Shown piece after piece: positions 3,843 through 30,760 of a DNA stretch of 44,928 nucleotides. Made by a program: the position numbers and the translations under genes. This DNA is from a virus, in the IMG/VR virus record IMGVR_UViG_3300022226_000009, positions 1 to 44,928 of that record. One strand, given 5' to 3'. The first letter of the stretch is position 1. Every line of letters begins with the position of its first letter. The notes beneath the pieces are model-generated. The model had not been told where the DNA came from, did not search any database, and saw nothing but the letters and a program-made list of their open reading frames with translations.

Positions 3843-3844
3843 AT

Positions 3845-5923: not shown

Positions 5924-6120
5924 GAGGCGTCCTCGTTGTTGTCTTCGTTGACGAATATGCACATCTTGGTGCCGATGGGGTGTGCGGTAAGCTCGATGTT
6001 GAAGCCATTCTTGATAGCCCATGCGCTGCCGATGGTGGTCCAGAACGTTTTCTCGTTGTTCGGGCCGTAGTGCTTGGCAACTGCAACGCGATGTGTGGGT
6101 TTGCTGTGATTGTTAGCCAT
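5920..6120 (-). CDS. Conserved phage protein, 66 residues
   Basis: ATG at 6120 follows AAGGAAACACATC. The product starts MANNHSKPTHRVAVAKHYGP and continues EKTFWTTIGSAWAIKNGFNI, then ELTAHPIGTKMCIF. The pattern HRV...G...FWTxIGxAWxxKxGFNIxLxAxPxG is one I know from small conserved phage and plasmid proteins of unknown function, predicted to be a compact beta-rich fold. The C-terminus is acidic (NEDNNEDAS). Stop and next start overlap as ATGA. Confidence 0.8.
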   Translation of the reverse strand: MANNHSKPTHRVAVAKHYGPNNEKTFWTTIGSAWAIKNGFNIELTAHPIGTKMCIFVNEDNNEDAS

Positions 6121-6188
6121 GATGTGTTTCCTTGTGGTAGTGGGTGGGTGAGCAGTTGTTAGTGCAGGATACTCAGCTGCGATGATGT

Positions 6189-6287
6189 CTAGGCTGCGAT
6201 GATGAAGAGGGCAGCTGCGACGAATGCGATGAAGCCTGCAAATGCGCACAGGGTGATGAAGCCGATGATGTTGATGATGCGATCCAT
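6189..6287 (-). CDS. 32-residue membrane peptide, first gene of the leftward cluster
   Basis: ATG at 6287 follows TTGGAGATACAC. The product MDRIINIIGFITLCAFAGFI ends AFVAAALFIIAA and is almost wholly hydrophobic, giving one long transmembrane helix that ends at the C-terminus. It is the first gene after the divergent intergenic region and is separated by 68 bp from the next gene. A holin-like or membrane-modulating role is possible but not shown. Confidence 0.7.
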   Translation of the reverse strand: MDRIINIIGFITLCAFAGFIAFVAAALFIIAA

Positions 6288-6687
6288 GTGTATCTCCAAC
6301 GTGAATGACACAAACCAACCACCTGCGGGCCGCGCCAGCGGGTCGCAATGAAGCCAAGCAGTGTGCCAAGCCGAGCGCACCTGAGCGAAGCGAAGCCAAA
6401 CGCGGAATTGGGAGCGCTAGCGAGCGATGTAGCGGTTGGGCATGCGATGTCACTGAGCGCTAGCGAGGTGGCAGAGCAGGCAGTGCGCGAGGTGTGCTAA
6501 AACCTGAGATGGCGTGGTTTTGACGGGGCCCAGTTCGGAGTGACGCGGTTTCGGATTGCTCGGCCTGTCGGGTGAGATAGGGAGAGGGATACGTGTTGTG
6601 GTGGGAGGGGGGAGGTAGTTTTGCAAGAAAGGTCTTGTATTTTTTTGCATACCTTGTTACCGTGGAACAAAGCACAAGGAGCTTAGC
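6288..6687. other. Divergent intergenic region, GC-rich
   Basis: Four hundred bases separate the leftward cluster from the rightward packaging genes, so promoters for both directions should lie here. No gene with a ribosome-binding site is seen. Two copies of GAGCGCTAGCGAG (6412-6424, 6455-6467) and a nearby GAGCGAAGCGAAG stand out. Close to the rightward start, CAAGA/TCTTG (6624-6637) forms a short hairpin followed by a run of T (6640-6646), in an AT-rich stretch that ends 27 bases before the first rightward gene. I could not find a confident sigma-70 promoter on either strand. Confidence 0.55.
6412..6467. repeat. Two direct copies of a 13-bp palindrome-containing element
   Basis: GAGCGCTAGCGAG occurs at 6412-6424 and 6455-6467, 43 bp apart (about four helical turns). 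Each copy contains the palindrome CGCTAGCG. The spacing and symmetry are what one expects of paired binding sites for a dimeric regulator in the divergent promoter region. Confidence 0.6.
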
Positions 6688-6921
6688 ATGCAGCAACTAG
6701 AACTCAATCTTCAAACCAGCGAACAAATCGCTCACGAGCGCGAATGCAACGCAGCCCGCTCAGCCTTTACCATTGGGTATCGGCGCGCCCTTCAGTACGT
6801 CAAAACGCACCCAGTCCAAAGCACCATGTCCGAAGAACAGCACATCGATTACGAAGCACGACGTTTCGTAAAGCAATTGCAACCCCTGACGGAGAATGAC
6901 TATGCTGAAAACAACCGATGA
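6688..6921 (+). CDS. Hypothetical protein, 77 residues
   Basis: ATG at 6688 follows AAGGAGCTTAGC, a strong ribosome-binding site. The product MQQLELNLQTSEQIAHEREC continues as a charged helical protein with NAARSAFTIGYRRALQYVKT and no recognised domain. It is the first gene of the rightward module, so it may be a regulator or packaging accessory, but nothing in the sequence shows this. Its TGA overlaps the ATG of the next gene as ATGA. Confidence 0.75.
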   Translation: MQQLELNLQTSEQIAHERECNAARSAFTIGYRRALQYVKTHPVQSTMSEEQHIDYEARRFVKQLQPLTENDYAENNR

Positions 6922-7307
6922 CCGACTCGAAAGGAAACTCTGTGGCCGCACCTACCCAGGCGCTACTCCAGCTATGCGGACTCGACAACATGCCCAAGCG
7001 GCGCAAGCGCCAGAAGTGGTGCGAGGTGACGCTGAAGTTCATCGGCGTAGAGTCCTACGTACTTGGCGCTAAGCGCGCCGTACTAAGTCTCACCGGTAGC
7101 GACGGTGGCTTCGGCCTGCGTTTCAAGGAAACGCTGGTTATCCAGGCAGACAGCTTGCTGGGTAACCGCATCAAGCACGGGCTGCTCACTGATGTGCGGA
7201 TTGATTTTGGTAAGGACAGCGATATGCCGGAGCTGTCACTAGCACAACTCATCGGCGGCAGGTATCCTATTGTTCTACGAGCGGGTGACTACGTACAGGT
7301 AAGCTAG
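6918..7307 (+). CDS. Hypothetical protein, 129 residues
   Basis: ATG at 6918 overlaps the previous stop. The product has a basic patch at residues 26-33 (PKRRKRQKW), then a beta-rich body with VLGAKRAVLSLTGSDGGFGL and a C-terminal segment ending RAGDYVQVS. It could be a small beta-barrel DNA-binding protein, but I recognise no family. The stop lies three bases before the next ATG, consistent with one operon leading into the terminase genes. Confidence 0.75.
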   Translation: MTDSKGNSVAAPTQALLQLCGLDNMPKRRKRQKWCEVTLKFIGVESYVLGAKRAVLSLTGSDGGFGLRFKETLVIQADSLLGNRIKHGLLTDVRIDFGKDSDMPELSLAQLIGGRYPIVLRAGDYVQVS

Positions 7308-7310
7308 CCC

Positions 7311-7520
7311 ATGACTGACAAACTTTGTTCAATGCCGAACTGTGACAAGCCGCCGCGCAGCGGCCAGCGTTACTGCAAGGCGTGCCACAGTGTTTATATG
7401 AAGGCGTGGCGCGCCAAGCGCCGCCGCGAGGAACAGCAGCTGCGCGGCAACGTGGTGCAGCTACGCAAGCGTGTCGTCGAGCTACAGCAACAGATAGCGG
7501 AGCAAGAGGCGAGTGGCTAA
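7311..7520 (+). CDS. Small zinc-finger protein with coiled-coil tail
   Basis: The 69-residue product starts MTDKLCSMPNCDKPPRSGQR and continues YCKACHSVYMKAWRAKRRRE. Cysteines 6, 11, 22 and 25 form a C-x(4)-C-x(10)-C-x(2)-C zinc site; the rest is a basic helix and a Gln/Glu-rich coiled coil (VVQLRKRVVELQQQ). Short zinc fingers of this type sit next to terminase genes in many phages, and some nearby ones are HNH-like, but no HNH histidines are present here. Its end overlaps the terminase small-subunit start by 8 bp, suggesting co-translation and perhaps a packaging accessory role. Confidence 0.8.
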   Translation: MTDKLCSMPNCDKPPRSGQRYCKACHSVYMKAWRAKRRREEQQLRGNVVQLRKRVVELQQQIAEQEASG

Positions 7521-8013: not shown

Positions 8014-9838
8014 TACTAAACACAAGCACGTCGCTCAGCCTGACCAGATGAAGGCGCGCGTCATGCTGCGCTTGAAGAAGGGTATCGACGAGCGTGACGC
8101 CTACCGTAACCCGTGTCGTAAGACCCGGCCTTTCACTATTCGCAAGGAATGGCTGGACAAGCAGAAGGAACTGCACCCTGACTGGTACGCCGAGGTCGAG
8201 GCCGAGCTACGCGCTCGGAACAAAGTGCTGGGTAATAAGCGCAAGAGCAAGAACATCAAAAAGGCCAAGGAAAAAATTGCTAAGAAGAACGTCAAGGCCA
8301 ACATGCAGCAAATCGCCGATAGCGTTGTGGAGGAAGGTGCAGCGGTGGTACGGCGTGAGCTGGCGCAGCGCGAGCTGTCGCGGCGCAGCCTGATCGCCAG
8401 TATCTTGCGCTTCAACGCGGACTACCTGGCGGGCTGGGTGCACAAGGACATTTGCATGCGCTTGCAGCGATTCATGCAGGCGGTGGAGGACGGCAAGAAT
8501 CCGCGCCTCATGCTGCAGATGCCACCACGCCACGGCAAAAGCATGATCGCCTCACAAGAATTTCCCGCGTGGCTGCTCGGCCATCACCCTGACTGGGAGC
8601 TGATCGTGTGTTCTTACGCCGAGAGCTTAGCGCTGGACTTCTCGCGCAACGTGCGCGAGCGCATGCGTGACCCTGAGTACCGCGTACTGTTCCCGGAGAC
8701 GAAACTTGACAGAGACAATCAGAACGCCCAAGGGTGGAAGCTCACCAAGAAAGGCGGCTTCTTACCCGCTGGTGTGGGCGGACCGATCACCGGTAAGGGA
8801 GCCCACGTACTCATCATCGACGATCCGATCAAGAACTCACAGGAAGCTGAGAGCGACACCACTAGAGCTAGCATTATGCGTTGGTACGAAACGACGGCAT
8901 ATACTCGTTTGGCCCCAGGAGGTGGAGTCCTTGTCATCCAGACCCGGTGGCATCTTGATGACCTGTCCGGTCGACTAGAAGCCGACATGCTGGAGGGCAA
9001 CGGCGATAACTTTGAAGTTGTTCGCTACCCGGCGATCGCGGTCGCCGACGAACAGCACCGCAAGCGCGGCGAGCCGTTGCACAAGGCGCGCTACAACAAG
9101 GCGCAGCTGACCATGATCCGCAAGGCAGTCGGTGAGCGCACCTGGGCGGCGCTGTACCAGCAGAACCCGGTGCCTGACGAGGGCGCGCAGTTCCAGAAGT
9201 CGATGATCAAGTATTATCGCAAGGGTGACGGCCAGCTGCCGGAGGACATGACCAAGGTAGCGGCCTGGGACCTGGCGATTGGCCAGAAAGAGGTGAACGA
9301 CAAGACTGTGGGGCTCACCTGGGGCAAGGATCGCGTCGGCGATTACTGGTTCCTGGACTGTCGGCACGGGCATTTTGATGCATTTGAGATCGTCAACGAG
9401 ATTTGTGACAGCTACGAGAAGCACAAACCGTTCACGGTGGGCATTGAAAAGGACAAAGTGGCGCTGGCCGTGGGGCCTTTGCTCGACACGGTGATGTCTG
9501 ATAGGGAACTATACGCCATGCATATTACCGAGCTTCGTCCGGCGCGGGAGGGCAACAAGTTAGAGCGTTGCCGGACCCTGCAGGGGATGATGCGGCAAGG
9601 CCGTGTATGGCTACCGCACCCTGACGAGGCCGACTGGGTGGATGAGTTTGTGACCGAGCTACTGCAGTTTCCGTACGGGCGGCGCGACGACCACGTCGAC
9701 GCGGCGGCCTGGCTGGCGTTGTTGTCCGTGGAAACGCCCTCGCCCGGTGGCATTTACAGTAAAATACCGCGTCGCGCGAGCTGGCGTGACCGACTCCGGC
9801 ACATGGGCCGCGAGGCACGCAGCATGATGAGTTCTTAA
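8006..9838 (+). CDS. terL: Terminase large subunit (ATPase and nuclease)
   Basis: The 610-residue protein carries the full packaging-motor set. Walker A is MPPRHGKS (172-179), Walker B is VLIIDDP (268-274, D272 and D273), and ARLxPGGGVLVIQTRWH supplies the coupling region. The RNase H-like nuclease has D422 in AAWDLAIGQ, E481 in GIEKD and D561/D562/D565 in DDHVDA. It translocates DNA into the prohead and cuts the concatemer. The first 130 residues are an unusually long lysine-rich extension (NKRKSKNIKKAKEKIAKK) before the conserved part. GTG at 8006 overlaps the small-subunit gene; an ATG at 8048 is the alternative start. Confidence 0.95.
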   Translation: MTDTKHKHVAQPDQMKARVMLRLKKGIDERDAYRNPCRKTRPFTIRKEWLDKQKELHPDWYAEVEAELRARNKVLGNKRKSKNIKKAKEKIAKKNVKANMQQIADSVVEEGAAVVRRELAQRELSRRSLIASILRFNADYLAGWVHKDICMRLQRFMQAVEDGKNPRLMLQMPPRHGKSMIASQEFPAWLLGHHPDWELIVCSYAESLALDFSRNVRERMRDPEYRVLFPETKLDRDNQNAQGWKLTKKGGFLPAGVGGPITGKGAHVLIIDDPIKNSQEAESDTTRASIMRWYETTAYTRLAPGGGVLVIQTRWHLDDLSGRLEADMLEGNGDNFEVVRYPAIAVADEQHRKRGEPLHKARYNKAQLTMIRKAVGERTWAALYQQNPVPDEGAQFQKSMIKYYRKGDGQLPEDMTKVAAWDLAIGQKEVNDKTVGLTWGKDRVGDYWFLDCRHGHFDAFEIVNEICDSYEKHKPFTVGIEKDKVALAVGPLLDTVMSDRELYAMHITELRPAREGNKLERCRTLQGMMRQGRVWLPHPDEADWVDEFVTELLQFPYGRRDDHVDAAAWLALLSVETPSPGGIYSKIPRRASWRDRLRHMGREARSMMSS

Positions 9839-9851
9839 CAGGAGAAAACCG

Positions 9852-10010
9852 ATGGCAGGCAGGCACCTTAACCCTTCAGCACCCCCAGGCAAGGCAAAAT
9901 TCCAGGGCGGTAGCTCGACCGGCAAGAAATCCAGCTTGAACAAAGCAAATCGTGAGACGCCGATGACGAAAAACATCGGGACGCCACGTGACAAGGGTGT
10001 TAATCGTTAA
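9852..10010 (+). CDS. Small basic hypothetical protein, 52 residues
   Basis: ATG at 9852 follows AGGAGAAAACCG. The product begins MAGRHLNPSAPPGKAKFQGG and continues SSTGKKSSLNKANRETPMTK; it is rich in Lys, Gly, Ser and Asn and probably disordered. It lies between the terminase and portal genes with short gaps on both sides (13 and 6 bp). A head-assembly or DNA-neutralising accessory would fit the position, but no family is recognised. Confidence 0.8.
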   Translation: MAGRHLNPSAPPGKAKFQGGSSTGKKSSLNKANRETPMTKNIGTPRDKGVNR

Positions 10011-10016
10011 CACCTC

Positions 10017-12140
10017 ATGGCTGCAGACACCAAAAACCAAGTCGCCGAGGCGAACTGGGTAGCTTATCAGCGCGCGCGTGACTCCGGTCACGACGATTGG
10101 CTCGACGATGCCAAGAAATGCGATCGATTTGTGCTCGGTGAGCAGTGGGAAGACAAAGACAGGGCCAAGTTAGAGGCTGAGGGCCGCCCGGTCCTCACGA
10201 TTAACGAAGTTTTGAAGGTCGTCAACGCGTTTTTGGGTAAACAGTCCCAGCAACGGGCCGATATTGTCTTCAAACCGGCGCGGGACGCCTCCGACGACAC
10301 CGCTGAGGCGCTCACGCGCCTCACCGAGCAGATTCTGGACCATAACAAGTACGAATTTGTCGAAAAAGAGGTGTTTGAGGACGGTATTGTCATTGATCGC
10401 GGCTATTTTGACCTGCGACTGGACTTTTCCGACAACATTATGGGCGATATCAAGGTTGCAGCCCTTGATCCGTACGAAGTACTGCCCGACCCGGACGCCA
10501 AGAGCTACGATCCGAGTACCTGGAACCAGGTAATGACCACGCGCTGGATGACGCTCGACGACATCGAGGCGCACTACGGCAAGAACAAGCGTAAAGAAGT
10601 AGCGAGCGTCGCCGCAGGCAACAACGCTTTTGGTGAAGATTCGGTGCGCTACGAGGGTACCCGCACGTTCGGTGCGGACGAATACGAGTCGCAGCAGTAC
10701 ACCGCCGAGGTGCACGACCGCACGGTGCGCGCGGTGCGCGTGCTGGAGCGGCAGTTCAAGCGTTTGAAGACCATCCGGTACTTCATCGACAACGAGATTG
10801 GCGACATGAAGCCGATCCCTGACGAGCTGCCGGACGAGCGCGCCGAGGCGATTGCCAGGGCCACCGGCCTGTCGATCATTCGCCGCGTCGGCCACAAGAT
10901 TCGCTGGGTAACCACCGCTGACAACGTGGTGTTGCACGACAGCTGGAGCCCGTACCGCACCTTCACCGTCATTCCGTACTTTCCGTTCTTCCGCAAGGGC
11001 AAAACTTCGGGAGTCGTCAAGCAGCTGCTGTCGCCGCAGGAGCAGTTCAACAAGATGGAGAGCCAGATGCTCCACATTGTGAACACCACGGCGAACTCCG
11101 GCTGGATATACGAGGAAGGCTCGCTGCTCAACATGACCACCGAGGAGCTGGAGGAGCGCGGCGCGGAGACCGGCCTGGTGATGGCGGTGAAGCGCGGCTC
11201 GGACCGGCCCGAGAAGATCATGGCGAACCAGATACCCACGGGCTTGGATCGCCTGGCGTCACGCGCGCAGGCAAACGTCGCGGGCATCGCGGGCGTGGAA
11301 GGCCTGGTCGGCCAGCCCAGCCGCGAGGTATCCGGGGTCGCGCTGGACCAGCTGGAGTCACGTGGCCTGATCCAGGTGGAAGTGCCGTTCGACGCGCTGA
11401 AGCGCACCCGCGCCCTGGTGGCCGCCAAGATGCTGGAGCTGATACAGGACTTTTACACCGAGACGCGTATCGTGCGGGTCACGGTGGGGAACGGTTACAA
11501 CGATCAGAACAACGAATTGGTTATCAATGGCCTGGATGCGGCTGGACAGATAACCAACGACGTCACGCTGGGTGAATACGACGTAGTCGTTAGCTCGCGT
11601 CCTGCCAGGGATAACTACGAAGATGCACAGTTTAGCTACGCCCTGCAGATGCGCGAGGCGGGGGTAATGATTCCTGACGATGTCGTTATCAGACACTCCC
11701 CGCTGGACGACAAGGATGCCATTGCCGATAGGGTCGCAGGGCTGCAGGGTGTAGCACCTCCGACGGAAGAAGAGATTCAGCTGCAAGCGCAGCAGATGGC
11801 GCTGCAGATCAAGACCACCGAGCTGGAGGCGAGCAAGCTGGAGGCCGAGGTGGCTGAGCTGCAGGCACGCGCCGCCTCGCAGTTTGCCAAGGCGCAGCAG
11901 CTGCAGGGCGATGCGCAGATAGCCGCGATGCAGCTGGCGATGCAGTCCAAGGAGAAGCTGGTGGACTTACAAGCGAAATTACAGATGTTTTATGATAACT
12001 TGGAGAATAAGCTGCAGCTGGCGCAGATTCACTCGCAGAACAAACGCGACGTCACGCTCATGCAGGAAAGCACGAAACACTCCATGAAAGAGCTTGACGT
12101 GATCGCCAAGTCCGTCATGCCACAACAGAGGGCAAAATAA
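10017..12140 (+). CDS. Portal protein, P22 type
   Basis: The 707-residue protein matches the P22 gp1 portal family in length and layout. The N-terminus has CDRFVLGEQWEDKDRAKLEA and GRPVLTINEVLKVVNAFLGK, the usual opening of this family; the middle holds the wing and stem regions with YFPFFRKGKTSGVVKQLLSP, and PSREVSGVALDQLESRG lies in the crown-proximal part. Residues 590-700 are a long Gln/Ala/Glu coiled coil that would extend the barrel inside the capsid. Twelve copies form the ring through which DNA enters and leaves and to which terminase and tail bind. The gene ends in TAATG, overlapping the scaffold start. Confidence 0.93.
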   Translation: MAADTKNQVAEANWVAYQRARDSGHDDWLDDAKKCDRFVLGEQWEDKDRAKLEAEGRPVLTINEVLKVVNAFLGKQSQQRADIVFKPARDASDDTAEALTRLTEQILDHNKYEFVEKEVFEDGIVIDRGYFDLRLDFSDNIMGDIKVAALDPYEVLPDPDAKSYDPSTWNQVMTTRWMTLDDIEAHYGKNKRKEVASVAAGNNAFGEDSVRYEGTRTFGADEYESQQYTAEVHDRTVRAVRVLERQFKRLKTIRYFIDNEIGDMKPIPDELPDERAEAIARATGLSIIRRVGHKIRWVTTADNVVLHDSWSPYRTFTVIPYFPFFRKGKTSGVVKQLLSPQEQFNKMESQMLHIVNTTANSGWIYEEGSLLNMTTEELEERGAETGLVMAVKRGSDRPEKIMANQIPTGLDRLASRAQANVAGIAGVEGLVGQPSREVSGVALDQLESRGLIQVEVPFDALKRTRALVAAKMLELIQDFYTETRIVRVTVGNGYNDQNNELVINGLDAAGQITNDVTLGEYDVVVSSRPARDNYEDAQFSYALQMREAGVMIPDDVVIRHSPLDDKDAIADRVAGLQGVAPPTEEEIQLQAQQMALQIKTTELEASKLEAEVAELQARAASQFAKAQQLQGDAQIAAMQLAMQSKEKLVDLQAKLQMFYDNLENKLQLAQIHSQNKRDVTLMQESTKHSMKELDVIAKSVMPQQRAK

Positions 12141-13141: not shown

Positions 13142-13218
13142 GCCCAGCTGGCGGAATTGGCATACGCGCCTGTCTTAGAAACAGGTTTATCTGAGTTCGA
13201 ATCTCAGGCTGGGCACCA
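13142..13218 (+). tRNA. tRNA-Leu(UAG), short variable loop
   Basis: A complete 77-base cloverleaf: acceptor GCCCAGC/GCTGGGC, Leu-like D arm (GCGGAATTGGCATACGC), anticodon stem CCTGT/ACAGG with loop CTTAGAA (anticodon TAG, reads CUA and probably other CUN codons), T arm CTGAG-TTCGAAT-CTCAG, discriminator A and an encoded CCA. The variable region is only five bases (TTTAT) although bacterial tRNA-Leu normally has a long class II arm. It lies 27 bases after the scaffold stop. Confidence 0.93.
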
Positions 13219-13219
13219 T

Positions 13220-13296
13220 CAGGGTGTAGCTCAGTCTGGTAGAGTTTCTGGCTTGGAACCAGAATGTCGCAGGTTCGAATCCTGCCATCCTGACCA
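13220..13296 (+). tRNA. tRNA-Pro(UGG)
   Basis: A complete 77-base cloverleaf: acceptor CAGGGTG/CATCCTG with one G-T pair, C1-G72 as in other bacterial tRNA-Pro, anticodon stem TCTGG/CCAGA with loop CTTGGAA (anticodon TGG, reads CCA and CCG), T arm GCAGG-TTCGAAT-CCTGC, discriminator A and an encoded CCA. Only one base separates it from tRNA-Leu, so both must be cut from one transcript. Confidence 0.95.
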
Positions 13297-16316: not shown

Positions 16317-18422
16317 ATGTCGGTTATTCGCTTAGGTGGGTTCCGAGGCGAACTGCCCCGCATACACCCTCGGTTGCTGCCTGAAGGCTCAGCGCAGACG
16401 GCGCTGAACTGCCGCATGGACTCCGGCGCACTGGCTCCCATACGCGACACCAGCAACATCCAGTCGACGACGTTAGCGTCGCCGATATCGCTGTATCGGT
16501 ACTCCGCCTCCGTATGGCTGGAAGCAACCACTGACACTGATTGGGTGACCTACCCGGTCGCCAATGACCAGTACGGGCGCGTCATCTTCGCCGACCCCGC
16601 CGCCAGTGAGCTGCGGGTCACTGACACGGCGTTGGTCGGTGCGGGCGGTTACCCGGCAAATTACTACCGTTTGGACGTACCGCCGCCGACGCAGGGCTTC
16701 GCGGTAACGCTGCAGGGTACTGCAGACGACACCGACGAGGTGCCTGAGACGCGGTACTACGTGTGTACCTTCGTCAACAGCTGGGGCGCGGAAGGGCCGC
16801 CGTCGCCAGCCAGCAACCAGGTAGAGTGGCGCACCGGCCAGACGGTGCTGATCGAGTCCCTGCCAGCGGTGCCTGCGGGCAGCTATAACATCACGCACCG
16901 CAGAATTTATCGGATTAATACCGGTTCCACTGGAACAACCAACTACCAGTACGTCACGGAAGTGGCGGTGTCCACTAACGCGAAGGCTATCTCGGCGATA
17001 ACGCAGGCCAACCCGGTCGTTGTAACGACCGCCGCGTCGCACACCTTTACCGAGGGCCAGGAAGTTGAGTTCACCGGGCTGGGGTTGGCGGCTACGACTA
17101 CGGTCACCGCCATCAGCAAGACTAACCCGGTGCGCGTGGAAGCACTGGCGCACGGGCTGGCCACGGGCGATTACGTGGAGATGGGTGATCTGGGCAGTGG
17201 CAACGGCATGGACGAGCTAAACGGGGTGCGTGGGCAGATCACGCTGGACACCGTCGATGCATTCTTCATCGACGGTATTGACGCGACCGGCTACGTTGCT
17301 TACAGCACGGGTGGCACGGTAGCGCAAGCGTACGGCATGGACGAGCTGGACGACAACACTTACGTTATCTCAGTGGTTGACGCGACCAACTTCTCGCTGG
17401 TCAGTACCGACGGCACGGCGTACAAAGCCTACCTTGACGGTGGCTCAGTGGCGCAGGTCGCAGGCACGTCGTACACCGACACAATTCCGTCAGCTAACCT
17501 GGCTGAGGTTATTCCCTCTGAAATCTACGATCCACCGAACGCGGCGACGGTTGGCATCAAGACACACCCGTCAGGGTTCCTGGTGGGCTTCTTCGGCAAT
17601 ACGCTGGCGTTCTCCGAACCCGGTGCGCCGCACGCCTGGCCGATTGATTATCGGCTGGTGACCAGTCACGAGATTGTGGGCGTGGGTGTGTTTGGTAACA
17701 CCGTGGCGGTGGTAACCAAGGGCTGGCCGTACCTGGCGATTGGCTCAGACCCCTCGGCTATTTCGATGGTGGAGCTGGAGATCGAACAAGCGTGCGTCGC
17801 CAAGCGCGGCATCGTCGACCTTGGTACGGCGATCGTGTACCCCAGCCCTGACGGGCTGATTATGCTGTCGAGTGACGGAGCCAGCAACGTTAGCGCGGCG
17901 ATCTTTGACCGTGACCAGTGGCAGGCGCTGGTACCAACGTCGTTCGTGGCGTTTAACTGGGAGCAGCAGTACCTGTGCTTCTACAACAACGGCGCGGGTG
18001 TCACCCGCGCGTTCATCATCGATCCGTTCGACCCCGGCGCGGGCGTGCGGTACATTAACAAGTACGTCACAGGCGGCCACAAAGACATCGAAGAGGATTT
18101 GCTGTACTGCATCGTCAGCGACGAGATTGAAAGCTGGGACCAGGGCAGCAACCTGGAGTACACCTGGAAGTCCAAGCCAACGTACACGCCGTACGCGGTT
18201 AATATGTCATCGGCCAAAGTCATTGCTGACGCCTACCCGGTGCGTGTGGAGTTTTATGTCGACGACACGAAACGCTACAATAAGTTGGTGCACAACTCCA
18301 CCGCGTTTAAGTTGCCGGGCGGATTCAAGGGTGAGAAGTTTGAAGTGCGGTTGAAAAGCAAGAAACGGGTCTCGCAGGTTGCGCTGGCGACCACCATGCG
18401 TGAGTTGTCCGCGACCGTTTAG
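16317..18422 (+). CDS. Tail protein, nozzle-like, 701 residues
   Basis: The first 60 residues (FRGELPRIHPRLLPEGSAQT) match the opening of large tail or nozzle proteins that follow the adaptors in podoviruses. Residues about 225-300 hold repeated Ig/FCCH-like stretches (NPVVVTTAASHTFTEGQEVE, then TNPVRVEALAHGLATGDYVE), and an approximate repeat of TAYKAYLDGGSVAQV with GYVAYSTGGTVAQ follows. The C-terminal half is beta-rich with WPYLAIGSDPSAISMVELEI, suggesting a propeller-like region. It probably forms the distal tail tube or knob through which DNA passes. Identification rests on order, size and the N-terminus. Confidence 0.75.
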   Translation: MSVIRLGGFRGELPRIHPRLLPEGSAQTALNCRMDSGALAPIRDTSNIQSTTLASPISLYRYSASVWLEATTDTDWVTYPVANDQYGRVIFADPAASELRVTDTALVGAGGYPANYYRLDVPPPTQGFAVTLQGTADDTDEVPETRYYVCTFVNSWGAEGPPSPASNQVEWRTGQTVLIESLPAVPAGSYNITHRRIYRINTGSTGTTNYQYVTEVAVSTNAKAISAITQANPVVVTTAASHTFTEGQEVEFTGLGLAATTTVTAISKTNPVRVEALAHGLATGDYVEMGDLGSGNGMDELNGVRGQITLDTVDAFFIDGIDATGYVAYSTGGTVAQAYGMDELDDNTYVISVVDATNFSLVSTDGTAYKAYLDGGSVAQVAGTSYTDTIPSANLAEVIPSEIYDPPNAATVGIKTHPSGFLVGFFGNTLAFSEPGAPHAWPIDYRLVTSHEIVGVGVFGNTVAVVTKGWPYLAIGSDPSAISMVELEIEQACVAKRGIVDLGTAIVYPSPDGLIMLSSDGASNVSAAIFDRDQWQALVPTSFVAFNWEQQYLCFYNNGAGVTRAFIIDPFDPGAGVRYINKYVTGGHKDIEEDLLYCIVSDEIESWDQGSNLEYTWKSKPTYTPYAVNMSSAKVIADAYPVRVEFYVDDTKRYNKLVHNSTAFKLPGGFKGEKFEVRLKSKKRVSQVALATTMRELSATV

Positions 18423-18445: not shown

Positions 18446-19879
18446 ATGAGCATGAGGGCAGGCACAAAAGGGCATCCCCCTGAAGTAAAGATTCAACTGA
18501 CAGAACAAGCCAAGTACGAAAAGATGTGGGCGATAGACGACTACCGTAAGGTCGCCCCCGGTGAGCAGTCGGCGTTTACTTTCCTGGAAATAGCCAAGCC
18601 ACTGCCGCACAGCACTTGCATAGACTTCGGCTGCGGCACTGGGCGCGGCGCGTTGATGCTGGCGATGTTTGGCAAGATGATCGTCACCATGGTGGACTTT
18701 GCCAAGAACGCGCTGGACAAAGAGATCGTTGAGATCATGGAAGAACAGCCGGACCGGTTGCAGTGGCTGCAGGCTGACCTGGCCAAAGACGTACCCGCGA
18801 CAGCGGCGTATGGCTACTGCACTGACGTCATGGAGCACATTCCCCCGGAGCAGGTAGATGACGTACTCAGAAATATCCTGAAGTCCGCCAACAACGTGTT
18901 TTTTCAAATCGCCATGCAGGACGATGTCATGGGGGCACGCATCGGCGAGCCGTTGCACCTAAGCATCCATCCCTACGAGTGGTGGGTGAAAAAGTTCCAG
19001 GAGCTGGGCGCGTTCATACAATGGTCACAGAACATCGAAGACCATACCTGCCAATTGTATGTTAATGCCTGGGCGGACAAAGACGACGTTAATTTTGAGG
19101 GCAAGGTCAACACCGACCTGGAGCAGGTACACAAGAACATAAGGAAAAACGCCGAGACGGAGTATCAGCTGATACGTCCACACCCGCCGCAGGACACCGA
19201 GATTATGTTGATCTGTGGTGGGCCATCGCTGAACGACTACACCGACGAAATCATCGAACTGCGCGCTAAAGGTATGCCGATAGTTACCACTAATGGCACC
19301 TATAACTGGGCCATCGCCAACGGCATGACACCGTCGATGCAGCTGATCATAGACGGTAGGAAGTTTAATAAGCGCTTCCTGCGTCCGGTCGTAGATGATT
19401 GTAAGTACGTGTTGGCGTCGCAGTGCAACCCGGTACTGTTTAAGGACTTGCCGTTGGAGCGGACTTACATCTGGCACGTCAATCTGGCAGACGAAGTAGA
19501 GGACTTATTGAACGAGCTGTACGATTTATGGTTCGCCTGTCCGGGAGGTTCCACGGTAACGCTGCGGGGCCTTTGCTTGCTGCGCATGCTCGGCTTCCAT
19601 AAGATTCACGTGTATGGGTTTGACAGCTGTTACCGCGAGGACGAACATCACGCGTATTCACAGCCGGAGAACGATTACAAAGCAAAACCTTTACCTGTGT
19701 CAGTGGGCGGTAAGGTTTTTTGGTGTGATCCCTGGATGTATTCTCAGGCACGAGAGTTCATTCAGATGGTAAAAATGCTCGGTGACGAGATTGAGTTAGA
19801 CGTAAAAGGTGATGGGTTAATAGCTCATATTATTAAGACTGGCGCGGCACTTAGCGCCTTAGAGGAAGACGAGGAATAA
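18446..19879 (+). CDS. SAM methyltransferase fused to an MptE/MAF-like domain
   Basis: Residues 1-200 are a class I SAM methyltransferase: motif I is DFGCGTGRG (60-68), DFAKN (84-88) would hold the ribose, and TDVMEHIPPEQV (127-137) is motif IV. Residues 245-440 resemble the MptE-like/MAF_flag10 (PF01973) fold: ICGGPSLND (257-264), TTNGTYNWAIANG, CPGGST (365-370) and HVYGFDSCYRED (388-399). That family includes an archaeal pterin pyrophosphokinase and flagellin glycosylation proteins, and is related to sialyltransferases. Sugar or nucleotide transfer plus methylation is plausible. It lies between tail genes, so virion-protein modification is an attractive but unproven idea. AAGGAATAATTCT precedes the ATG. 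Confidence 0.85.
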   Translation: MSMRAGTKGHPPEVKIQLTEQAKYEKMWAIDDYRKVAPGEQSAFTFLEIAKPLPHSTCIDFGCGTGRGALMLAMFGKMIVTMVDFAKNALDKEIVEIMEEQPDRLQWLQADLAKDVPATAAYGYCTDVMEHIPPEQVDDVLRNILKSANNVFFQIAMQDDVMGARIGEPLHLSIHPYEWWVKKFQELGAFIQWSQNIEDHTCQLYVNAWADKDDVNFEGKVNTDLEQVHKNIRKNAETEYQLIRPHPPQDTEIMLICGGPSLNDYTDEIIELRAKGMPIVTTNGTYNWAIANGMTPSMQLIIDGRKFNKRFLRPVVDDCKYVLASQCNPVLFKDLPLERTYIWHVNLADEVEDLLNELYDLWFACPGGSTVTLRGLCLLRMLGFHKIHVYGFDSCYREDEHHAYSQPENDYKAKPLPVSVGGKVFWCDPWMYSQAREFIQMVKMLGDEIELDVKGDGLIAHIIKTGAALSALEEDEE

Positions 19880-19882: not shown

Positions 19883-20338
19883 ATGGCTGCTTCGGCATGG
19901 GTATTTTACAATCAGGCCAAGAAAAAGCTCGGTCAGGCTACGGGCGGTATTCGCCTGGACTCTGGCATTTTCAAGATGAGCTTGCACACCAGCGCTAGCG
20001 ACGCATCGGTTGATACACAGTCAATTCTCAGTCAGCTTAGCGGTGAAATTGCTGCTGCTGGCGGTTATGCGGCTGGTGGCAGAACCATTGCGGGCGTTGC
20101 CTGGACGGTTGCAGGCGATCCGTCGTCGGCTAAGTGGGACGCGACCGACCTGGTGTTCACAGCGAGTGGCGCAAACTTGAGTAACGTGAAGTACGCGGTT
20201 ATTCACTACTCAGTAGGCTCAACGACTTCTGGTCCGCTGCTGTGCTGGTCGAAACTGAGCACGAGTCAGTTCTCGGTTACGTCGGGCAACACGCTTACAA
20301 TTCAGTTTGCAGCGGCAGGTATCTTTACGCTGACGTAA
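19883..20338 (+). CDS. Small structural-type protein, 151 residues
   Basis: ATG at 19883 follows GAGGAATAAACT directly after the methyltransferase stop. The product starts MAASAWVFYNQAKKKLGQAT and is a beta-rich, Ser/Ala/Gly-rich sequence with LVFTASGANLSNVKYAVIHY and a C-terminus ending FAAAGIFTLT. Similar short proteins (VFYxxAKxxxxxGxIxLxSxxFKMxL) lie beside tail-fibre genes in other phages and are taken as minor virion proteins. No enzymatic motif is present. Confidence 0.75.
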   Translation: MAASAWVFYNQAKKKLGQATGGIRLDSGIFKMSLHTSASDASVDTQSILSQLSGEIAAAGGYAAGGRTIAGVAWTVAGDPSSAKWDATDLVFTASGANLSNVKYAVIHYSVGSTTSGPLLCWSKLSTSQFSVTSGNTLTIQFAAAGIFTLT

Positions 20339-20354: not shown

Positions 20355-23300
20355 GTGGCCAATGACCGTATTGAGTTCACGGCAACAGGGCGTTACTACA
20401 AGGTCTACAGAAACGGCGAGTTCGTTTCACAGCACACGACTGAGCGGGAAGCGTCGCAGAAGGCCGCTAATGAACTGCTGCAGGATAACGCAGCAGCGGT
20501 CCACTATACGCACGACTATGTCGTCGAAGCTGAGTTTGTGGCGGGCGATGAGCCCGAACCTCCCGATTCCAGCCTCGTCATCCCGGTACCTACCAGGGTT
20601 CGTAACACCGCTGTTACCCCAGGGGCCGCCGCGTTGACGATTACCAACCACATCATAGTACCCAGGATGACGCCGCCTGCTACGGCGGCCAGTACCATTG
20701 TGCTGGACGCGGCCTCGTACGAAGGCACCGAGAACACCACCACACAGTTTTCAGCAACGCGCACTAACGGTTACAGCCACCGGGTCAGCGTTGACTGGAC
20801 GCTGACTGGCGCTGCTGCCACGCCTGCTGCGGGCACCATCACCTTCCCGGTCGGCGAAGGGCAGCAGACTGTCGTGGTAGAGCTGGGTGAGGTGACAGTA
20901 GACAAAGGTGGGTTTCTGGCGCTGACCAACCCGCAGAACCTGGACGGCGGACCAACGCCGGTGTTTGGCGATCCGTACTACACGAACTTCACCACGTACA
21001 ACGAGCCTGAAGTCACCGACATATACTTGAACCTGGGCAGCAGTGGCTACTCCGGTACCGAAGACACACTTATTTCGTTCGCCGTTAATCGTACGGGCGC
21101 GCTGGGTACCACCGCAGTATCAGTGGACTGGGCCATTACTGGTGTGACCACAACGCCTTCCTCAGGCACCGTGACCTTCGCCGCAGACGATTCACAGCAG
21201 CCGGTAGAGGTAGCAGCTGGCCTGGTGACGGGCACCACAGCAGGTACGTTAACGCTGTCTAACTCGCAGAATCTCAGCGGCGACGCTAACACGGTGTCCT
21301 TGTCGGCACCGCTGACCGCGAGCTTCACAGTGGTTGATGTTGGTATCACTATCAGTACCATCCCCGACATCACGCTCTCCGTCGATGGCACCCACGACAT
21401 GAGCCAGTACATCAGCAACCCGCAGTCCGAGGCCATCACCACCAGCATGACCGGGTTGGATTTGTCCAAGGCCACTTATGACAGTGGGACTATGGAACTG
21501 AGAGGCGTAGCCGCAACCACCACGCCGCTTACGGGTGTGGAGCTATTGGTGAGCACAGACGCCTTCTGGACACTGCCAGCCGGTACTCAGGCGAAAGCAG
21601 ATACTGGGCTATTTGTTCACAACTTCAACTCGACAACCTCGGAAGTAGAGCATCGCGGCTTATCTGTTTACTGGGCTGATCTAAACCCCGCAGAAGGTGT
21701 TTATGACTGGACATCCATTACAGATAAGTTGAACGGCAGTTTGGGTGACTACCAGATAGTGCTGCTTATTAAGACTAACGTGGCCGATAAGAATGGCATA
21801 TGGGGTGCGGGTCAGAGCATCCCGCAATGGGTGCTGGACAAACACTCGCCAGCACTGGCATACATGAAGTACGACGACGCTTCAAACTATATTCAGGTAG
21901 CAGCACCGTGGGATACCGGGTTACAAGCTGAGCTGTCGGCGTTCATTACAGCCTTTGGCGCACAAGGTATTCACAATCACGCGAATTTCCTCGGCGCTTA
22001 TGTCCACGGTATCTCGACCTCTTACGGCGAAGAATTTTGGATGGATGCTGCTGCCGTCGCCAGCTTAGAGGCGGCTGGCATGACGCCTGCGCTACTGCAA
22101 AGCTCATTTACGGATCGCTTGAACTGGTGGGCTACAGCGGTCGGTGCGCAAGTAGGTAAGTTGGGTTGGGTGAAAGCAGAGTGGTTCCAGACCAACGCCA
22201 GTGCGAACCATGCCGCTTATCAGTTAGTGGGGCCAGTGCTGGATGATCTTGCCTATACGCTTGGCATGGGTACTCGCTGGGGGAACTCGGAGAAGTATTG
22301 GGGTCGGAATAACGAAGATGGGCAGTCCTACGACGCTGACGGTTATCTGGAAACTGATTACACCAATCTGATTCTTGCGGAACAGCGGTTCTTCGCCAAC
22401 GAGAATGAGTATAACGGTTCCAGCCAGCCGGACGAAGCCTATGAATACCGAATGGCGTGTTTGCGTACACTGGCTATGGGGCAGCGCCTCATGTGGGTGG
22501 AGGATCGTCGGGTAGCGCTTGATCCGACAATCAGTGAATACTACACGCTGATTGCTGGTAAAACGGCGGCGGAGTCACCGGATGCATGGAGCGTCCAGAT
22601 CGAGGCTGATCGCGATAACTCGCCAACACTGAAGAATTTTGAACGCTTCTTGTATCAACGTGAGGCCGCAGGCTCTGTTACGACACGTTCTTTGCCGGTA
22701 ACTCGCTCGGTCCACAGTCACGACGCTGGCTCCCCGGTTGATTGGACGGCAAGAACAACCAATGTGGCCAGCGGTAATGACCGCATCACGTTTACCGTTG
22801 ACCAAGCGTTCTTACCCGTAGGGTCAGGCGCTACGGTAGACCTGAAGGTCGAGTGGCTTGATGATGGTGCGAGCTGGAAAGTGCTGTACTCCACGCCGAC
22901 CGGCACCGCTGAAGCTGGACCCTTCGCTGGTATAAACGACACTAACTTGAAAACTCGTGAAGTCGCACTTAGTAACTTCGACACCACACAAAACCTGACA
23001 GGCGGCTTTGACTTCGCGCTGGTGGCAACGCAGGGTGATCTGACGGTATCGGCTGCGCGTATTTTGCGGGAGGTTGGAACAGCGGCACAGTCGGTTGTTG
23101 CTGGTATCCTTAACTTAGCCTCTGGTCAGGGTGGGTCGGCACAACTCCACTTTGAGTGGACGCGACCAACCACCAGCACAGATGCGTCAGTGCTGCGTGA
23201 TTTACGCAGCTTCAAGATTTATGTTGGAACGTCCAGTGGTAATTACAACGTCCTTGGCACAGACACCTTCGGCACCGGTCAGAAGGGTGCAACTGAGTGC

Positions 23301-24617
23301 ATTGTCACTGGGCTAAACACTGGCGTTACTTATTATTGCACGGCTTCTGCGATTGATGCCTTTGGCAACGAAAGCGCGAAAGCCACAGAACAGTCATTTG
23401 TCGCTGCTATTCCAAGTACGCCAAGCCGGTCGTACACAGACATAACTGGAACGACGACCATATCCGGCCCCGGCGACTATCGCTTAACGGCCAGCTTTGC
23501 GGGCAAGGTCACTATTGATTCCAGCGATGTCTACTTATACGGCAACGGTCAGACCATCACGTTTGATGCTGACCACGGCATAGAGATCGACTACGGTACA
23601 CAGGATAATGTCGAGATAGACGGCGTATCATTCACCGCTACTGGTGGTGCTGGCGCAAACATTAGAGTGCTTGGCAACCTGACCAACAGCAAGATACATG
23701 ACTGTGGGTTTGAGTCGAGAAACCCCGGAACTGCCGCCATAGATGCAAGCGGAGGTATGTCTGGCACAAGAGTTTATTCAAACACGCTTTCTATTGACAC
23801 TGGCACAACGGTTGGTACGGCGCGTGATGCCGTTATGGGACGGAGTTGCAACGGCCCTAACCTGAAATTCTTTAACAACACGATTACTTGTGTCAATGCC
23901 GCAAGGGATGGCGGTTATGCTGATTGTCAAGACGTAGATATTTTTGCGGATACTTGCACGTTCTCAGCGCCCTGTGGTCAAGCTACTTATATCTCAAACT
24001 ACAAACACGGCGGCGTTTATATACATGACTGCAACATCGACGCCTCGGCCATTACGACTGGCAGGGTCATCCACTTTGACGGCAGTCAAGACTATCTGAT
24101 ACTGCACAACACTATAGACGTTGGAACGGGTATGCGCGGTATTGGCTTCCGAGGTGCTGGTGGCGATGCGGTGGATGATGCGAGCGTTGGCTACAACATT
24201 ATTCGTGCTGGCGGCAGAAGTATTGGTGCCGGTATCCGGTTTGGCGGTGACGAGAGCGGCACTAATCCGGCGTCAGGATATGTTTATAACAACACCGTCA
24301 CCGATGCGGCTCGGACTGCGCTGGAGTTTTACGGCGAATGGGATGCCACCCTGACAACTTGGGCAAATACCTTTACCGGGGTTGAAATAACAAACTATGA
24401 CGTTTTGCTTGGTTCCCAATGGAATACCAACAACGACACAATCTCAGGTGATGTTGAAACAGCGGTCAGTGCAGCGGAGTGGAATGTGTTTAACAGCTTT
24501 ACAGCAGGTCAATGTACCGGCTCAACGGCACACATTAACTTTGTAGGATCGTGGGCGGGCTACAACGGTAACAACGACACACCATCGGCACCGACTAACG
24601 TCAAGGAAATTACATGA
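20355..24617 (+). CDS. Giant tail-spike: Calx-beta repeats, glycosidase-like barrel, FN3 and beta-helix
   Basis: GTG at 20355 opens a 1420-residue protein. Residues 1-85 are a short unique head. Two Calx-beta-like repeats follow (about 115-215 and 222-330, each with YxGTExTxxxFxxxRTxG and VSVDW). Residues about 415-760 look like a TIM-barrel glycosidase: GLSVYWADLNPAEGVYDW matches the strand-loop of GH42/GH5-type enzymes, and GISTSYGEEFWM (E559/E560) is a candidate acid/base site. A beta-sandwich (about 780-910), an FN3 domain (about 925-1020) and a right-handed beta-helix (about 1030-1410) complete it. It should bind and cut surface polysaccharide of the host. Catalytic residues are inferred. 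Confidence 0.85.
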   Translation: MANDRIEFTATGRYYKVYRNGEFVSQHTTEREASQKAANELLQDNAAAVHYTHDYVVEAEFVAGDEPEPPDSSLVIPVPTRVRNTAVTPGAAALTITNHIIVPRMTPPATAASTIVLDAASYEGTENTTTQFSATRTNGYSHRVSVDWTLTGAAATPAAGTITFPVGEGQQTVVVELGEVTVDKGGFLALTNPQNLDGGPTPVFGDPYYTNFTTYNEPEVTDIYLNLGSSGYSGTEDTLISFAVNRTGALGTTAVSVDWAITGVTTTPSSGTVTFAADDSQQPVEVAAGLVTGTTAGTLTLSNSQNLSGDANTVSLSAPLTASFTVVDVGITISTIPDITLSVDGTHDMSQYISNPQSEAITTSMTGLDLSKATYDSGTMELRGVAATTTPLTGVELLVSTDAFWTLPAGTQAKADTGLFVHNFNSTTSEVEHRGLSVYWADLNPAEGVYDWTSITDKLNGSLGDYQIVLLIKTNVADKNGIWGAGQSIPQWVLDKHSPALAYMKYDDASNYIQVAAPWDTGLQAELSAFITAFGAQGIHNHANFLGAYVHGISTSYGEEFWMDAAAVASLEAAGMTPALLQSSFTDRLNWWATAVGAQVGKLGWVKAEWFQTNASANHAAYQLVGPVLDDLAYTLGMGTRWGNSEKYWGRNNEDGQSYDADGYLETDYTNLILAEQRFFANENEYNGSSQPDEAYEYRMACLRTLAMGQRLMWVEDRRVALDPTISEYYTLIAGKTAAESPDAWSVQIEADRDNSPTLKNFERFLYQREAAGSVTTRSLPVTRSVHSHDAGSPVDWTARTTNVASGNDRITFTVDQAFLPVGSGATVDLKVEWLDDGASWKVLYSTPTGTAEAGPFAGINDTNLKTREVALSNFDTTQNLTGGFDFALVATQGDLTVSAARILREVGTAAQSVVAGILNLASGQGGSAQLHFEWTRPTTSTDASVLRDLRSFKIYVGTSSGNYNVLGTDTFGTGQKGATECIVTGLNTGVTYYCTASAIDAFGNESAKATEQSFVAAIPSTPSRSYTDITGTTTISGPGDYRLTASFAGKVTIDSSDVYLYGNGQTITFDADHGIEIDYGTQDNVEIDGVSFTATGGAGANIRVLGNLTNSKIHDCGFESRNPGTAAIDASGGMSGTRVYSNTLSIDTGTTVGTARDAVMGRSCNGPNLKFFNNTITCVNAARDGGYADCQDVDIFADTCTFSAPCGQATYISNYKHGGVYIHDCNIDASAITTGRVIHFDGSQDYLILHNTIDVGTGMRGIGFRGAGGDAVDDASVGYNIIRAGGRSIGAGIRFGGDESGTNPASGYVYNNTVTDAARTALEFYGEWDATLTTWANTFTGVEITNYDVLLGSQWNTNNDTISGDVETAVSAAEWNVFNSFTAGQCTGSTAHINFVGSWAGYNGNNDTPSAPTNVKEIT

Positions 24618-27865: not shown

Positions 27866-30760
27866 ATGGCTCGTAATTTACTCTCACTCACTATCTCTGC
27901 GCCGACCTCGGACCCTAACCAGCCTGAGGGCGGCAGTTTTACATATACGGTCACCCCGGCTTTTGCGGGTGGTGGCGGTGTTACTGCGTATGACCTTGAT
28001 CTGCAATGGGATCAAGGTACAGCCACTTGGCAGACCATACCCGGTAGCGGTGGCTTATCGACTGCGGGGACGGCGTACTACGCCAGCACGACCCAAGACA
28101 CCGCATTTACGATCACGGTTGATTGCAATACGGCTGGCAGCTACAACATCCGTGCGATCAATATTGACCGCAGCGTTACCTCTACACCATCCTCGCAAGC
28201 GGTCACAGTTACTGCCTCTAACATCGTCATCGACGGCAGCCAAACGCCGGACCTTGACCCAGATCAGTTGGTATTTACTGGCAAGATTCCTGAGGTATTC
28301 CGGGAAGACTACGTAACGCCTGACATTGATCAGCTCGTACTTGCTGGCAAGATACCGACGCTACAGTACGACACTCCCAAGGCACCGGACAAAGACGCTT
28401 TAGTACTCGCGGGCAAAGTACCCAGTGTCGCAGTTGACCTTACGTTAACCGTAGCACCCGGGCAGCTACGTGCTTACTCAGCCAGGGGCTTATGGCTTAA
28501 TGGCTTAACACCAACCATCGTAGTTTCTGGTGGGGCCGATGTTGACCGCACTCCTGCCGAAGTCGATTTAGCCCTTGCAGGCAAGGTACCGACGCTACTG
28601 CGTGAGGACTACACTGCACCGGCCATCGAAACCTTAGCCCTCGCCGGTAAGGTACCGACGCTCCTGCGCGAAGACGTTGTCGCACCGGGTGCTGACCCCT
28701 TAGTACTCAGCGGCCAAGCACCCAGCGTCGAGCGTGACTACTTCATCGACGTCACCGAAGAGACGCTCGCCCTCACCGGCAAAGCGCCGACAGTCACGGC
28801 TGGCGTGGCTACTGACACAGGCGCGCTGGCGCTGGCGGGCAAAGTACCAACAATTCTGCAGACACAGTCGGCAGCACCAAGCGAAGACAGCTTGGTGCTG
28901 GACGGCAAAACACCGACGCTGCTGCGCGAGGACTACGTCAGTCCTGCCATCGATGACCTGGCACTGACTGGCTATGCGCCGTCTGTTGAACGTGATTACT
29001 TTATCGATGTAAGTGAAAAGACCCTAGCGTTAACAGGTAAAGAGTTTTCGATCCTAAGTGGTCAGGCGTTCTCACCCGAGGTTGACGCGCTGGCACTCAG
29101 TGGCCAGGCACCGACTGTCTTACAAACTTTCTCAGCAGCGCCCGCCGCAGAGACGCTCGCACTGAGTGGCCAGGCACCAACGGTGCTCAGTGCAGCGTTG
29201 TTCGTGCCGCCTGTTGATACGTTAGTACTGGCAGGCCAGGCACCCAGCGTCGAACGTGACTACTTCATCGACGTTGGCGCAGATACCTTAGCGCTGACTG
29301 GTAAGCCCCCCGTGGCGCTCACTGGTCTGGCGTTCGCGCCGCCCGTCGATACGCTGGTACTGGCTGGCCAGGCACCCAGTGTAGAACGTGATTACTTCAT
29401 AGCTGTTGGCGCAGAAACCCTGGCGCTGGCAGGCCAAGTACCAGTAATACCGTCAACAGCCGCCGCGCTGCCCGAGGCAGCCACGTTAACGCTAACAGGT
29501 CAGCAACCAGTACGCGGCTACGGCTTGCTCTTGCGGGGCGCAGCACCGACGCTGTCAATTGGTGAGTCAGTAGCACCTGCCGCAGATACTCTGGCACTGA
29601 CTGGCAAAGTACCTATAGCCGACCGGGGCGATGTACCCGCGCCAGCCGCAGGGACGCTGGCACTGACAGGCCAGTCGCTAGTACCGTACGCAGCGGGTAC
29701 GTTCATTGTCGAGCCTGCCGCAGAGACACTGACCTTCACTGGTCACATACCGGGCGTCGAGTCAGCACCGACCACGCTTACTAACCCGCCAGTTGGTCCA
29801 TTAACGCTGACCGGCAACGCGACGACCCGCGCCCGTGGTTTGTTGCTGCGCGGTTACGCTCCGAACGTAGCACTCAGTAGTCCGAAGCCGGGTAAAGGCA
29901 CGCTGACACTCAGCGGCCAAGCGCTCAGCATCGTCGATACGTCGCCGCAGGATACGGTCGTAGCGCCGAGCCGTAACCGCCGTGAGCTGGAAGGCTACAA
30001 CCCGGTCCTTGAAGACAGCCAGACCGCCTTAGACAGCTCCGCTAAGTTGCTGGGTTACCCACCGCAGGCGTGGGCATCATCACCAATATTTTACCCGGCA
30101 ACAGGGGCACTGACGTTCACTGGTCACATACCGCCGACGAAGCTGGAGTTCGCGCCTGCCGCTGACACCCTGGCACTGAGTGGCCAGGCACCGACGCTTG
30201 CTCTGTCTAACAACTACGCCATTACCCCGGCAGCCGGGGCGCTGGCGCTGCTTGGCCAGACCCCGGGTATCAGTGGCCCGCTGGTCTTTAACATCATCGT
30301 TGATGAGGCGACGCTCAGCATTACCGAGCAGCTGGCCTACGTTGGTCGCTCGATAACGCCGCCTGCAGTAGCTCGGAACCTTAACGGCAAGGTGCCGCTG
30401 GCGGGCGACTTTATCAACCCAGTCAGGCAGCCAGCCGCTGCCACGCTGGCACTGAGTGGCCAGGCACCGGCTGCGGTTGATGTCGGTTATAACCTGCAGA
30501 TTGACGCAGCCACACTGACGCTTAATGGTCAGACGCTCAGCGGCGAAGAAGTCCACAACGTACTGGTGCCTGTCGGTGAGCTAAACCTCACGGGCTACTT
30601 GGCTATTTACCAGCCTTTCGTAGCTCCGGGAGCGGCGACACTAACACTAAGCGGCGGCGCTGGCGCGGTACTATCGACGGTACGGATTCGCAGGCACGGC
30701 GCACGACTGCGGTGTATCAGCTTAACGACGAGGCGCGGCATTAAGATGCTGTACGACTGA
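27866..30760 (+). CDS. Tail-associated protein built of 22-residue repeats
   Basis: The 964-residue protein starts with an Ig-like domain (about 1-125, SFTYTVTPAFAGGGGVTAYD). From about residue 130 to the end it is a tandem array of roughly 22-residue units whose consensus is xPxxxTLALxGQAPTVxxxxxx, for example VDTLVLAGQAPSVERDYFI. More than 25 units can be read, many exact in the LxLxGxxP core, with a few degenerate ones (ETLSLGG, LLLRGYAP). Each unit would form one short beta-strand and turn, giving a stiff solenoid or fibre. No enzymatic motif is present. The short C-terminus is basic (RIRRHGARLRCISL). The next gene overlaps by one base and holds the same repeats, so both probably form one structure. 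Confidence 0.8.
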   Translation: MARNLLSLTISAPTSDPNQPEGGSFTYTVTPAFAGGGGVTAYDLDLQWDQGTATWQTIPGSGGLSTAGTAYYASTTQDTAFTITVDCNTAGSYNIRAINIDRSVTSTPSSQAVTVTASNIVIDGSQTPDLDPDQLVFTGKIPEVFREDYVTPDIDQLVLAGKIPTLQYDTPKAPDKDALVLAGKVPSVAVDLTLTVAPGQLRAYSARGLWLNGLTPTIVVSGGADVDRTPAEVDLALAGKVPTLLREDYTAPAIETLALAGKVPTLLREDVVAPGADPLVLSGQAPSVERDYFIDVTEETLALTGKAPTVTAGVATDTGALALAGKVPTILQTQSAAPSEDSLVLDGKTPTLLREDYVSPAIDDLALTGYAPSVERDYFIDVSEKTLALTGKEFSILSGQAFSPEVDALALSGQAPTVLQTFSAAPAAETLALSGQAPTVLSAALFVPPVDTLVLAGQAPSVERDYFIDVGADTLALTGKPPVALTGLAFAPPVDTLVLAGQAPSVERDYFIAVGAETLALAGQVPVIPSTAAALPEAATLTLTGQQPVRGYGLLLRGAAPTLSIGESVAPAADTLALTGKVPIADRGDVPAPAAGTLALTGQSLVPYAAGTFIVEPAAETLTFTGHIPGVESAPTTLTNPPVGPLTLTGNATTRARGLLLRGYAPNVALSSPKPGKGTLTLSGQALSIVDTSPQDTVVAPSRNRRELEGYNPVLEDSQTALDSSAKLLGYPPQAWASSPIFYPATGALTFTGHIPPTKLEFAPAADTLALSGQAPTLALSNNYAITPAAGALALLGQTPGISGPLVFNIIVDEATLSITEQLAYVGRSITPPAVARNLNGKVPLAGDFINPVRQPAAATLALSGQAPAAVDVGYNLQIDAATLTLNGQTLSGEEVHNVLVPVGELNLTGYLAIYQPFVAPGAATLTLSGGAGAVLSTVRIRRHGARLRCISLTTRRGIKMLYD
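28256..30690 (+). repeat. Array of 66-bp in-frame tandem repeats
   Basis: The coding sequence repeats every 66 bp (22 codons). A pair of nearly identical blocks begins at 29213 and 29345, 132 bp apart (two units), and GGCCAGGCACC recurs at several unit starts. Copies differ mainly at third codon positions, so protein selection keeps the pattern. The repeats would allow length change by recombination. Confidence 0.75.

Follow-up and report, generated by a model that had tools for sequence, protein, structure and literature searches.

A methyltransferase fused to a Maf-like domain, encoded beside a tail-type gene in uncultured phages

Introduction

Among the described systems that come closest to the gene reported here are the Maf proteins (motility accessory factors), flagellin glycosyltransferases that modify serine and threonine, whose central domain (PF01973) is structurally similar to the sialyltransferase Cst-II, and whose N-terminal domain, a degenerate Rossmann fold, weakly resembles methyltransferases in its motifs (PMC11339370). 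On the virion side, mycobacteriophages of cluster O are described as using glycosyltransferases and a neighbouring O-methyltransferase to modify the capsid and tail tube (Freeman et al. 2023, via PMC11600133). Here we describe a phage gene in which a methyltransferase (MT) and a Maf/MptE-like domain (MP) form one chain and which, as read from its sequence, parallels the Maf architecture: it has the domain order of Maf, with an intact methyltransferase and without the C-terminal helical domain. Our literature searches found no study of this MT-MP fusion and none of phage MptE-like proteins.

Results

A two-domain gene in the structural block

We analysed a stretch of 44,928 nucleotides from a virus (IMG/VR record IMGVR_UViG_3300022226_000009), hereafter the window. 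Its late block runs from terminase through P22-type portal, scaffold-like protein, phrog_334 head protein, two SU10-type adaptors and phrog_511 to the fusion gene and phrog_644, followed by large fn3-, Ig-, beta-helix- and tail-fibre-like proteins. An earlier note on this DNA had placed the gene among virion and tail genes, and the portal, head, adaptor, internal virion and tail-type genes around it bear this out. The features on which the analysis rests are as follows:

16317..18422, + strand: phrog_511 internal virion protein, upstream neighbour
18446..19879, + strand: MT-MP fusion gene, 477 aa, ATG start (Pfam, alignment, AlphaFold2)
18503..19066, + strand: class I SAM methyltransferase (MT) half, about residues 20-207 (Pfam Methyltransf_25/11/12/23, solved relatives)
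18623..18649, + strand: SAM motif I DFGCGTGRG, residues 60-68 (alignment of 47 members)
18818..18838, + strand: CTDVMEH, residues 125-131 (alignment of 47 members)
19109..19876, + strand: Maf/MptE-like PF01973 (MP) half, about residues 222-477 (Pfam, profile, Foldseek)
19211..19237, + strand: ICGGPSLND, residues 256-264 (alignment of 47 members)
19538..19555, + strand: CPGGST, residues 365-370 (alignment of 47 members)
19613..19651, + strand: YGFDSCYR, residues 390-397, plus H402 (alignment of 47 members)
19883..20338, + strand: phrog_644 gene, 151 aa, Ser/Thr-rich (24%)

Evaluating the chain against Pfam, we found Methyltransf_25 at residues 59-146 (E 1.7e-8, over the cut-off) and PF01973 at residues 228-398 (E 8e-16, 58.7 bits against a cut-off of 34.6), and both families were matched by 47/47 members of an alignment of diverse relatives, the others being 46-73% identical to the window protein. 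Within this alignment the SAM site (D60, G62, G64, G66, D84) is invariant, as are C125, D127, E130, H131 and H171 in the MT half and P260, S261, N283, D303, R310, Q326, G367, G368, D393, S394, H402, E408 and N409 in the MP half; YGFDSCYR and H402 are nearly invariant in the wider homologue set too. CTDVMEH together with H171 likely forms the methyl-acceptor side of the active site, ICGGPSLND is a candidate nucleotide-sugar phosphate loop and H402 a candidate catalytic histidine of the MP half. With the 47 sequences as input AlphaFold2 returned two well-folded domains (pLDDT 88.7, pTM 0.86), against a poor pLDDT of 56 with 6 sequences. Because all 47 members match both families and AlphaFold2 folds both halves, we do not regard the two-domain fusion as a product of chance.

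These results confirm the open reading frame and the two enzyme modules that the earlier note had read in one chain, together with all four of its motif positions (60-68, 256-264, 365-370 and 390-397), and the structure prediction that it had called for yielded a well-folded domain for each half. Disrupted pockets, which the note had named as evidence against its reading, are absent at the sequence level, since the key site residues are invariant and the AlphaFold2 model is good.

Several other features of the window were recorded. Two tRNA genes, Leu(tag) and Pro(tgg), stand side by side at 13142-13296, after the scaffold-like gene and before that for the head protein. The 1420-aa tail-spike-like protein encoded at 20355-24617 has Ig/fn3-like parts and a beta-helix-like C-terminus; the sequence of its middle (VYDWTSITDKL, IPQWVLDKH) resembles a glycoside-hydrolase barrel and had no match among PDB sequences. 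Further downstream, 27866-30760 encodes a 964-aa protein with degenerate xLxLxGxxPxx repeats, and no DNA-level tandem repeat was found in this region.

The MP half is Maf-like and the MT half resembles small-molecule methyltransferases

Comparing an MP profile (24 sequences, reversed fusions included) with solved structures, we found that Maf (5mu5, E 5.1e-12) is matched far better than MptE (8sd5, E 0.004), whose match spans the first third of the domain only, so that MptE is not the closest solved relative. Foldseek with the whole-chain model likewise placed Maf at rank 1 in the PDB (E 1e-12, 534 alignment columns), with a TM of only 0.38/0.30 and an rmsd of 19.5, values which mean either that the domain orientation differs or that the alignment joins two local matches. 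One homologue (L021) also matched the NCBIfam PseD flagellin-modification model at 1.3e-5, under the model's cut-off. The second module, called MptE/MAF-like in the earlier note, is thus supported by profile and Foldseek, and as Maf-like rather than generic. The PF01973 family also includes a diphosphokinase, and for this reason sugar transfer by the MP half is not certain.

Solved structures related to the MT half come from small-molecule N/O-methyltransferases (phosphoethanolamine N-methyltransferases, UbiG, TehB, ChlM, NodS, DhpI), and the AlphaFold2 model with its Foldseek matches to ChlM, NodS and DhpI gives a Rossmann methyltransferase fold. The half carries the class I SAM features of a glycine-rich motif I and an acidic residue, D84, at the end of strand 2; a search of it for a DPPY/NPPF motif found none.

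The fusion is widespread in uncultured viruses and occurs in several arrangements

A first IMG/VR scan revealed six loci at 64-73% identity, and a profile of the MT half then matched 424 related contigs, the best 80 of which were examined. This first set held 99 ORFs with MT or MP, of which 93 joined the two in MT-MP order, and the remainder were contig-end fragments, split forms and one gene with an in-frame stop (a TGA at 6469-6471 of L020 that splits the MT half and may be a sequencing error, a pseudogene or recoding). All searches together gave at least 125 distinct ORFs with both halves, 121 MT-MP and 4 MP-MT; these homologues are related to each other, and the counts are not counts of independent events. 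The loci on genome contigs come mostly from MAGs and may represent viral DNA placed in bacterial bins, such that their organism names are not host assignments. Among isolated and deposited phage records the window fusion had a single partial relative, and neither a megablast of the window nor two MP queries matched any isolated phage; because the deposited phages gave only this partial relative, the family is, in these collections, nearly confined to uncultured viruses.

In every phage arrangement examined the gene lies among structural genes, with head or tail genes adjoining, and the blocks carrying MT or MP involve at least four head-protein families (phrog_334, 9953, 247 and 267). The opposite domain order, MP-MT, occurs at four loci (L101-L104). 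An MT gene followed by a separate small MptE-like gene, right after a head protein, is present in MW202621 (ctUtU524) and in a Lysobacter dokdonensis contig; since these small genes match MP only weakly by BLASTP and by hhalign (probability 14%, E 0.002), we call them MptE-like and do not count them as MP members. The Lysobacter contig, in which head protein, methyltransferase and MptE-like gene stand in a row at 9010-11246, belongs to a named isolate (DS-58) and offers a cultivable place for testing the system. MP then MT as separate adjacent genes was seen on one contig, L097, where positions 3755-7492, beside holin and terminase small subunit genes, hold a sub-threshold GT8-like gene, a 781-aa protein with PF01973 at its C-terminus and a middle that may be methyltransferase-like, and a methyltransferase gene. 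Another locus (L100) has MP and phrog_644 without MT, so that MT may be dispensable. The reversed fusions form one clade in the MP tree (support 0.996) and are scattered in the MT tree, a mismatch that suggests either exchange of the MT half or low resolution. The repeated pairing of both domain types in differing orders argues for a shared task.

A tail-type gene follows the fusion

Evaluating the neighbours, we found a phrog_644 gene directly downstream in 110/110 readable MT-MP fusions among the matches listed, mostly after a gap of 1-3 bp, and this survey bears out the setting beside tail genes for which the earlier note had proposed one. Some loci had been fetched by phrog_644 itself, and a recount was therefore confined to those found without a phrog_644 query, where the gene again followed in 60/60 (among the matches listed). 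The reverse search, over the 80 best phrog_644 matches, which are close relatives of the seeds, found MP upstream in 76/76 readable loci. By comparison, phrog_644 directly follows none of the four MP-MT fusions, one of which (L104) carries a family member 3.4 kb before the fusion. Immediately upstream the genes vary: about 116 of them form 34 BLAST clusters, and the scanned representative (L042) of the largest cluster, with 63 loci, is a second phrog_644 relative. In mycobacteriophages Nala, Gage, Shauna1 and Courthouse, phrog_644 stands immediately after the last minor tail gene without MT-MP, and hence there are phages in which phrog_644 does without the enzyme. The window phrog_644 protein itself had no match among isolated phages.

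From this context, the likeliest identity of the phrog_644 product is that of a small structural protein associated with the tail. By gene proximity we tentatively, and at less than even odds, take it to be the main acceptor; adjacency of genes is no proof that the product is the substrate, and the Ser/Thr content is no evidence for the role either, because enzyme-linked members (mean 23%) are not richer than enzyme-free ones (30-31%). The earlier note had favoured the neighbouring spike or repeat proteins as acceptors, and 56 of the 97 related loci do have repeat proteins like the 964-aa one near the fusion, but they are less constant than phrog_644 (84 of 97), the loci lacking either being mostly cut by contig ends.

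Discussion

We assign a probability of roughly 0.5 to the reading that the fusion is a bifunctional enzyme that would glycosylate and methylate a virion (tail) protein; its catalysis, sugar donor, acceptor, step order and purpose are all matters that we infer. The MP half, as a Maf-type glycosyltransferase, would take one sugar from a nucleotide-activated donor supplied by the host, plausibly a CMP-linked nonulosonic acid or another acidic sugar of that kind, and attach it to Ser/Thr residues of a structural protein. The likeliest such protein is the tail-type product of phrog_644, the next gene downstream, whose translation is probably coupled to that of the fusion. The MT half would then cap the added sugar with a methyl group, or methylate the same acceptor, and the purpose would be an altered particle surface. 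Evaluating 25 records for supporting genes, we found a CMP-sugar synthetase (CTP_transf_3) in 0/25, and no nonulosonic-acid genes stand beside the phage gene, whose neighbours are structural, so that the donor would have to come from the host; GT2 enzyme genes occur in only 3/25, such that the glycan would be short.

Other activities have to be weighed against virion modification. Some phage glycosyltransferases alter the serotype of the host (PMC12619734), and since the MT half resembles small-molecule methyltransferases, the fusion might act on a host surface glycan or receptor, in the manner of superinfection exclusion or seroconversion, instead of on the virion; we consider this unlikely, with the gene in the structural block in every phage arrangement examined and its fixed partner a tail-type gene. 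The same placement in the structural block speaks against the DNA-base modification that the earlier note had offered as an alternative. Phages do glycosylate DNA bases (PMC12619734), but the MT half has no DPPY/NPPF, and no DNA methyltransferase is among its best solved relatives, which leaves a glycosylated or methylated base with little support. Thymidylate-synthase-type genes, a usual source of modified pyrimidines, occur in only 1/25 records, and we rate hypermodification of phage DNA as very improbable.

PF01973 is named after MptE, and the weak 8sd5 match would fit an MP half that acts as a pyrophosphokinase or nucleotide-modifying enzyme, the fusion then making a methylated small molecule; this is quite improbable, considering that the Maf match is far better, that the MptE match stops after the first third of the domain and that a fixed tail-gene partner would be left unexplained. 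About equally improbable is that the chain, as part of the virion or as a chaperone, binds the phrog_644 product in tail assembly, with catalysis secondary or lost. The near-obligate linkage to a tail-type gene is what such a role would predict, but SAM and Maf motifs are invariant among members only 46-73% identical to the window, and both domains are kept in the reversed-order forms.

If glycosylation and methylation of the virion is the function, hundreds of uncultured phage contigs would carry a compact one-gene particle-modifying enzyme with a predictable acceptor next door, Maf-type protein glycosylation would extend from flagella to virions, and the enzyme and acceptor would form a self-contained pair testable in E. 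coli. A further-reaching version, which we regard as doubtful, is that fusion and phrog_644 acceptor make up a dedicated sugar-and-methyl cassette of the virion that shares its whole two-domain ancestry with bacterial Maf, the Maf N-terminus being a decayed methyltransferase. The pairing also bears on a question in the Maf literature, what the methyltransferase-like motifs are there for in the Maf N-terminal domain, a domain with no known function.

Comparison with known systems

To Maf (5mu5) the phage chain is similar in the sequence and fold of the central domain, which its MP half has in common, and in the domain order, a Rossmann-type N-terminal domain preceding PF01973. It differs in its N-terminal domain, where the SAM motif is intact and methyltransferase families are matched, and in that it ends at residue 477 after the PF01973-like part, without the C-terminal helical (chaperone-like) domain. 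No flagellin lies near the phage gene, the partner being phrog_644 and the neighbours phage structural genes. With MptE (8sd5), the archaeal 6-hydroxymethyl-7,8-dihydropterin diphosphokinase, it has the Pfam family in common, whereas the match is the weaker and partial one given above and the context is one of phage structural genes. The MptE-like proteins of uncultured Caudovirales in BFVD (for example A0A6J5PVH5 and A0A6J7XC21) have the predicted fold of the MP half but are longer chains of other composition.

The virion system described for cluster O (PMC11600133), compared here by gene arrangement and targets and not by glycosyltransferase families, is alike in that glycosyltransferases adjoin an O-methyltransferase, and differs in having separate genes where the window has one fused chain, and in phage lineage. 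This precedent makes the pairing of methyltransferase and glycosyltransferase plausible and lowers the novelty: the new modification system of which the earlier note spoke was too strong a term, since mycobacteriophage glycosylation with an O-methyltransferase is known, and the part that stands is the real two-enzyme chain. What would be new is a one-chain fusion variant of known virion glycosylation, in a family almost absent from isolated phages.
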